64,000 bases of DNA from Desulfofarcimen acetoxidans DSM 771 (lineage in GTDB: Bacteria; Bacillota; Desulfotomaculia; Desulfotomaculales; Desulfofarciminaceae), in the NCBI RefSeq assembly GCF_000024205.1, contig NC_013216.1:3782001-3846000 (forward strand), given 5' to 3'. Shown one piece after another: positions 13,246 through 13,575 of this stretch. A model generated the notes under the pieces. That model ran no database searches, was not told the DNA's origin, and saw nothing but the letters and a program-made list of their open reading frames with translations. Within the stretch, counting starts at the first letter, position 1. Each line of letters begins with the position of its first letter. The translations under genes were made by a program, and so were the position numbers.

Positions 13246-13443
13246 ACCCCTAAGATATTTAAAAAAACTCATCCCAACAAATAAAAACACATATATGCCA
13301 GCTCCAAAACAGTCTTCTCATTAACCCTCTTTCACCTGTATTATCCCAGTTACAGTAGAGCATCAATAATTTATAACTTTTTTTCATATAATATATAACA
13401 GGATATTAAGTATTTTTGTAGAATACTATATCTACATAAACTT

Positions 13444-13540
13444 GGGGAGAAAGGCACCGGTGTGTCTCGCAGACTGCAAATCTGCTGACCTGCCCGCGAT
13501 CCGGGCGGGGGTCCGGTTCAACTCCGACTTCTCCCCTCCA
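13444..13540 (+). tRNA. tRNA-Sec-shaped tRNA with cysteine anticodon GCA
   Basis: The 97-nt gene folds as a bacterial tRNA-Sec: 8-bp acceptor stem GGGGAGAA/TTCTCCCC; 6-bp D stem AGGCAC/GTGTCT with a 4-nt CGGT loop; anticodon stem GCAGA/TCTGC with loop CTGCAAA; 8-bp variable-arm stem CCTGCCCG/CGGGCGGG with a 5-nt loop; T stem of 5 bp with C13513 bulged out, T loop TTCAACT; encoded CCA. The anticodon (13476-13478) is GCA, reading UGC/UGU, and the discriminator is U73. Canonical tRNA-Sec has anticodon UCA and G73; U73 plus GCA are the known CysRS identity elements. Mukai and colleagues described minor Cys and Sec tRNAs of this type. Whether it carries Cys or Sec cannot be told from sequence. It stands alone between two terminators. 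Confidence 0.9.
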
Positions 13541-13543
13541 CAA

Positions 13544-13575
13544 AAAAAATAACCCCGGCGGGGTTATTTTTTATG
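13544..13575. terminator. Bidirectional terminator between the odd tRNA and asnS
   Basis: AAAATAACCCC, loop GGC (part of the stem), GGGGTTATTTT with T runs on both strands. It starts four bases after the tRNA CCA end and overlaps the 3' end of the converging asnS gene. Confidence 0.85.

Follow-up and report, generated by a model that had tools for sequence, protein, structure and literature searches.

A cysteine tRNA gene built like a selenocysteine tRNA in Desulfofarcimen acetoxidans, most likely another tRNA-ReC

Which amino acid does a tRNA carry, and to which codon, when its body is that of a selenocysteine tRNA and its anticodon and discriminator base are those of a cysteine tRNA? This question was raised by a gene at 13444–13540 on the forward strand of the window, that is, the whole 64,000-nucleotide stretch of Desulfofarcimen acetoxidans DSM 771 analyzed here (NC_013216.1, positions 3,782,001 to 3,846,000). 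The initial annotation of the locus had proposed a hybrid identity, with U73 pointing to charging by CysRS and the shape to recognition by SelA and SelB, by which cysteine might enter at SelB-dependent sites or selenocysteine (Sec) at UGC/UGU codons. A tRNA of Desulfotomaculum nigrificans, to which the window tRNA is compared below, was reportedly named tRNA-ReC in a paper of 2018.

Identification and fold of the tRNA gene

ARAGORN predicted a tRNA-Cys(gca) with exactly the span 13444–13540, and this span was a full-length match to the Rfam tRNA-Sec model at 49.8 bits, exceeding the gathering score of 47. When the genome was scanned with the same model, the window tRNA ranked second, behind the true selC. 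The score by itself was not decisive, because an ordinary tRNA-Ser(UGA) reached 48.3 bits with this model. The window tRNA was absent from the 67 genome tRNAs listed by the Rfam general tRNA model. Elsewhere in the genome, four tRNA-Ile(UAU)-like genes had low tRNA scores (contig C1, positions 173763, 1961882, 3078362, and 3659127; L047, L046, L050, and L048, respectively); they had similar flanks with a common downstream GCCACGCCTCTT-like stretch, and are possibly tied to a mobile element.

The RNA reads GGGGAGAA A GGCAC CGGU GUGUC UC GCAGA CUGCAAA UCUGC UGA in its first half and CCUGCCCG CGAUC CGGGCGGG G GU[C]CGG UUCAACU CCGAC UUCUCCCC U CCA in its second half. The acceptor stem consists of 8 bp between the 5′ strand GGGGAGAA (13444–13451) and the 3′ strand UUCUCCCC (13529–13536), followed by the discriminator U73 (13537) and an encoded CCA (13538–13540). 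Between the two strands, alignment with homologues placed a D arm of 5 bp with a 4-nt loop (13453–13466), an anticodon arm of 5 bp with a 7-nt loop (13469–13485) that carries the anticodon GCA (13476–13478), a long variable arm of 8 bp with a 5-nt loop (13489–13509), and a T arm of 5 bp (13511–13528) with the loop UUCAACU and the stem GU[C]CGG/CCGAC, in which the bracketed C (13513 or 13514) is bulged. Single-strand folding of the tRNA gave −45.2 kcal/mol with a z of −2.5.

Homologues were collected by BLAST of 200 related genomes and then with a covariance model trained on 26 of the homologues. The tRNA family was present in 79 of the 200 genomes, a count that omits weaker matches that are canonical tRNA-Sec. 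In the alignment of the 26 homologues, 98.5% of the cells were paired and 12 pairs were changed on both sides, compared with a mean of 4.2 in shuffles, none of 500 being as high. Compensatory changes were found at three of the eight acceptor pairs, and pair 8 switched between A-U and G-C in five of the sequences. This covariation is stronger evidence for the tRNA fold than the tRNA-Sec model score. An ordinary class II tRNA was ruled out by the eight acceptor pairs with their compensatory changes, together with the absence of the gene from the list of the general tRNA model. The locus is a real gene, a cysteine tRNA built like a selenocysteine tRNA.

Most of the architecture claimed in the initial annotation was confirmed: the 8-bp acceptor stem and long variable arm by the tRNA-Sec model match and the paired homologue alignment, the GCA anticodon and U73 of tRNA-Cys by the sequence and ARAGORN, and the bulged C by the T-stem sequence. 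The 6-bp D stem with a 4-nt loop held only in part. A sixth pair, A9-U25 (13452–13467), can form in the window tRNA, but it was paired in only three of the 26 relatives, the other 23 having A.C, C.C, or U.C at 9-25; the D stem conserved among the homologues comprises 5 bp closing a 4-nt loop, or 4 bp closing a 5-nt loop. The T-stem bulge was common in the family but variable: the bulged base was C, U, or A, and in a few members the bulge was missing. Among the 73 family members read, 62 had GCA/U73/CCA, two had ACA/U73/CCA, and nine had UCA with A73 or G73.

Selenocysteine system and proposed decoding

The genome contained a canonical tRNA-Sec (UCA, G73), one SelA gene directly before selB, one SelB above the curated cut-off, and two SelD genes. 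Each SelD gene had one in-frame TGA at the active-site motif SG-U-A-[AC]-K, and one of the two formate dehydrogenase alpha genes had a TGA at CART-U-HAP (FdhA). The Sec genes and the UGA-containing SelD and FdhA indicated that the cell makes selenoproteins and that its own SelD genes need UGA to be read. Besides one CysRS, the genome encoded two different canonical tRNA-Cys(GCA) sequences; neither a second CysRS nor a second SelB dedicated to the window tRNA was found in it.

The full SelA/SelB/SelD set and the tRNA-Sec-like body would both suit a Sec carrier, on which SerRS and SelA act and from which SelB delivers Sec at UGC/UGU, as with the tRNA-Sec(GCA) of Aeromonas. We regard such a carrier as very unlikely, in view of the canonical tRNA-Sec in the genome, the in-frame UGA used by SelD and FdhA, and a discriminator that is U73, not G73. 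Recognition by SelA, as first proposed, is unsupported, since the sixth D-stem pair that SelA uses is not conserved and U73 and GCA favor CysRS; Sec at UGC/UGU is in turn less likely, because serine charging and SelA would be required.

A relative of the window tRNA, from D. nigrificans, has been tested (Vargas-Rodriguez et al. 2018, RNA Biol 15:471), and in the part of PMC11415595 that summarizes this test, SelB rather than EF-Tu delivers the tRNA, which inserts cysteine at Sec UGA codons. The same summary, in which the relative avoids EF-Tu, argues against a minor tRNA-Cys that works with EF-Tu at UGC/UGU and whose Sec-like shape serves no special purpose and is simply tolerated. GCA and U73 do match tRNA-Cys, and the two homologues with ACA would read the Cys codon UGU; however, canonical tRNA-Cys genes are already in the genome, the 8-bp acceptor stem is maintained by compensatory changes, and the family is linked to yedE and the SAO operon, as described below, which together make a minor tRNA-Cys improbable.

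By analogy with the D. nigrificans relative, we consider it highly probable that the product of the window gene is a tRNA-ReC, which would be charged by CysRS, delivered by SelB, and used to insert cysteine at Sec UGA codons. Of the hybrid identity first proposed, charging by CysRS, handling by SelB, and cysteine at SelB-dependent sites agree with the published result for that relative and with the gene set. The sole CysRS of the genome would recognize U73 and GCA and charge the tRNA with cysteine. The 8-bp acceptor stem and the bulged 13-bp acceptor-T branch would exclude EF-Tu and hand the tRNA to the sole SelB, which, in times of scarce Sec-tRNA, may place cysteine at a SECIS-marked UGA through a G34-A3 mispair. 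Translation of both SelD genes depends on the reading of an in-frame UGA, and therefore, without Sec, there would be no enzyme that makes Sec; a cysteine form of SelD could, we suggest, break this circle. The GCA anticodon would be safe off target, because without SelB it would give only cysteine at Cys codons. Against the tRNA-ReC reading, the pairing of GCA with UGA would be non-cognate, and the window tRNA does not adjoin selenium genes. To our knowledge, a natural role for this kind of tRNA has only been proposed, as a safeguard. Given the cysteine that the tested relative inserts at UGA codons for Sec, the window tRNA probably serves to safeguard the synthesis of selenoproteins. If the tRNA-ReC reading is true, programmed, SelB-tethered GCA-UGA mispairing would be a rare way of giving a codon two meanings, Sec or Cys, according to nutrient supply.

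Genomic context and linkage to selenium genes

In the window, the tRNA gene stands alone, far from yedE, with hisG upstream and asnS downstream on the opposite strand, and none of its conserved protein neighbors is selenium-linked. A weak sigma-70-type promoter candidate (ATAACA-18-TAGAAT, 9 of 12 matches) was located at 13395–13424 on the forward strand, in a scan whose number of sites was within chance. Downstream, a terminator-like hairpin of 13 bp with the loop GGC and flanking A and T runs (13544–13572, forward strand; −16 kcal/mol, z −2.8) was not flagged by the consensus scan; it is possibly common to the tRNA and the opposing asnS.

Among the 79 tRNA-bearing genomes, SelB was present in all except a 57% complete assembly, a co-occurrence that says little inside the order because nearly every genome there has SelB; a comparison of SelB loss with tRNA loss across the 200 relatives was likewise uninformative inside the order. 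A match to the yedE profile TIGR04112 (YedE family putative selenium transporter) was present in 61 of the 79. yedE lay at most 255 nt from the tRNA in 23 genomes of seven families, and within 20 kb in another ten; in the 24 close pairs, it was downstream on the same strand in 23 and divergent in one. We estimated from genome size that yedE would lie within 500 nt of the tRNA by chance in well under one genome, and the 23 linked genomes are not 23 independent events, because one ancestral arrangement may be inherited. A role proposed for YedE is the transport of selenium compounds, either inward or outward (PMC5322559). In the literature consulted, including PMC11415595 and PMC7609411, neither the yedE linkage nor the SAO linkage of the tRNA is mentioned.

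Several tRNA loci of relatives had further features. In L229, L230, L234, and L235, the tRNA was directly preceded by a LysR-type regulator of the same orientation, and in three of these the regulator and the tRNA stand before yedE; a LysR subfamily has been proposed as a regulator of selenium genes (PMC5322559). Genome G086 had three tRNA copies, two of them each adjoining its own yedE, and the anticodon ACA, which would read UGU, occurred in two yedE-linked copies (L157:44–139 and L160:42–138). In two genomes, molybdenum/tungsten cofactor riboswitches were found about 1 kb from the tRNA (L082:2671–2790 and L083:2399–2518).

In most linked genomes the tRNA lay 41–92 nt upstream of the yedE match, and this position, with the altered yedE-linked copies (ACA in G054 and G086, a T-loop change in G099), would fit an RNA that is not mainly a translational tRNA, such as a cis element or an RNA regulator of selenium genes including yedE. 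That the window tRNA is alone, far from yedE, and has its own downstream hairpin, and that the anticodon, U73, and CCA are conserved, leaves little room for such an element, to which we assign a very low probability.

In family f8, whose members are placed in Pelotomaculum by named records, the tRNA was flanked by saoC and saoX within the SAO (Sec-assisted organometal) operon, the genes of which were identified as the NCBIfam equivalogs SaoT, SaoE, SaoC, SaoX, SaoB, SaoP, SaoA, and SaoD. One f8 genome (G008) kept GCA/U73, and nine others had UCA with A73 (once G73) besides canonical tRNA-Sec; the body of these UCA tRNAs (L204–L212, e.g., L204:9601–9696) was the same as that of the GCA tRNA, and the SAO context was seen in most, not all, of the nine loci. 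The UCA anticodon with A73 or G73 indicated that the Cys identity is lost there. These UCA tRNAs match tRNA-ReU, the name that the 2018 paper is said to have given to a UCA form in Pelotomaculum. Reading of UGA in SAO genes by the UCA tRNA was considered and rejected, as the sites of SaoT, SaoC, and SaoB that are Sec elsewhere were Cys codons in the six loci read.

Tentatively, tRNA-ReC might form a selenium-status module with YedE, and with the SAO operon in the Pelotomaculum family, that mainly preserves the function of Sec-encoded SelD once Sec-tRNA is exhausted. Co-transcription of tRNA-ReC with YedE would then mean that the Cys substitute and the selenium-handling proteins are made together. 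The yedE and SAO links and the UGA-containing SelD predict that the tRNA is expressed with selenium genes and that cysteine is found at the SelD UGA under selenium limitation.

Comparison with known tRNAs

Canonical tRNA-Cys has a 7/5 branch and a short variable loop, and neither feature was found in the window tRNA. Canonical bacterial tRNA-Sec (selC) has the 8-bp acceptor stem, 13-bp branch, and long variable arm in common with it; however, selC has UCA, G73, and no bulge, whereas the window tRNA has GCA, U73, and a bulged C. The D stem of selC has 6 bp, of which the sixth is possible in the window tRNA but not conserved, and the linker between the acceptor and D stems has two bases in bacterial tRNA-Sec and one in the window tRNA. 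The Pelotomaculum UCA derivative (tRNA-ReU) has the same body and bulged T arm, and differs in its UCA anticodon and A73 (once G73) from the GCA and U73 of the window tRNA.

The selC* tRNA-Cys (Mukai et al. 2017), in the part of PMC7609411 that describes it, has a 4-bp T stem with an A51a bulge (8/4), and its hosts include Firmicutes. As described there, it shares the 8-bp acceptor stem, long variable arm, U73, GCA, and a T-stem bulge with the window tRNA, whose 5-bp T stem carries a bulged C (8/5) and no unpaired A51a. The selC* tRNA-Cys genes of Desulfobacterales lie beside second SelB and CysRS genes, whereas the window genome is without either. Judged from its sequence, the window tRNA is of a kind already described and differs in T-stem detail from the reviewed 8/4 form. 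With the tRNA-ReC of D. nigrificans, compared by the summarized description and not base by base, it has in common the tRNA-Sec-like body, GCA, the Cys identity, the clostridial sulfate-reducer lineage, and a canonical tRNA-Sec and one SelB alongside, and no difference of kind was seen. Because of these shared traits and lineage, we filed the window gene as, most likely, another tRNA-ReC.
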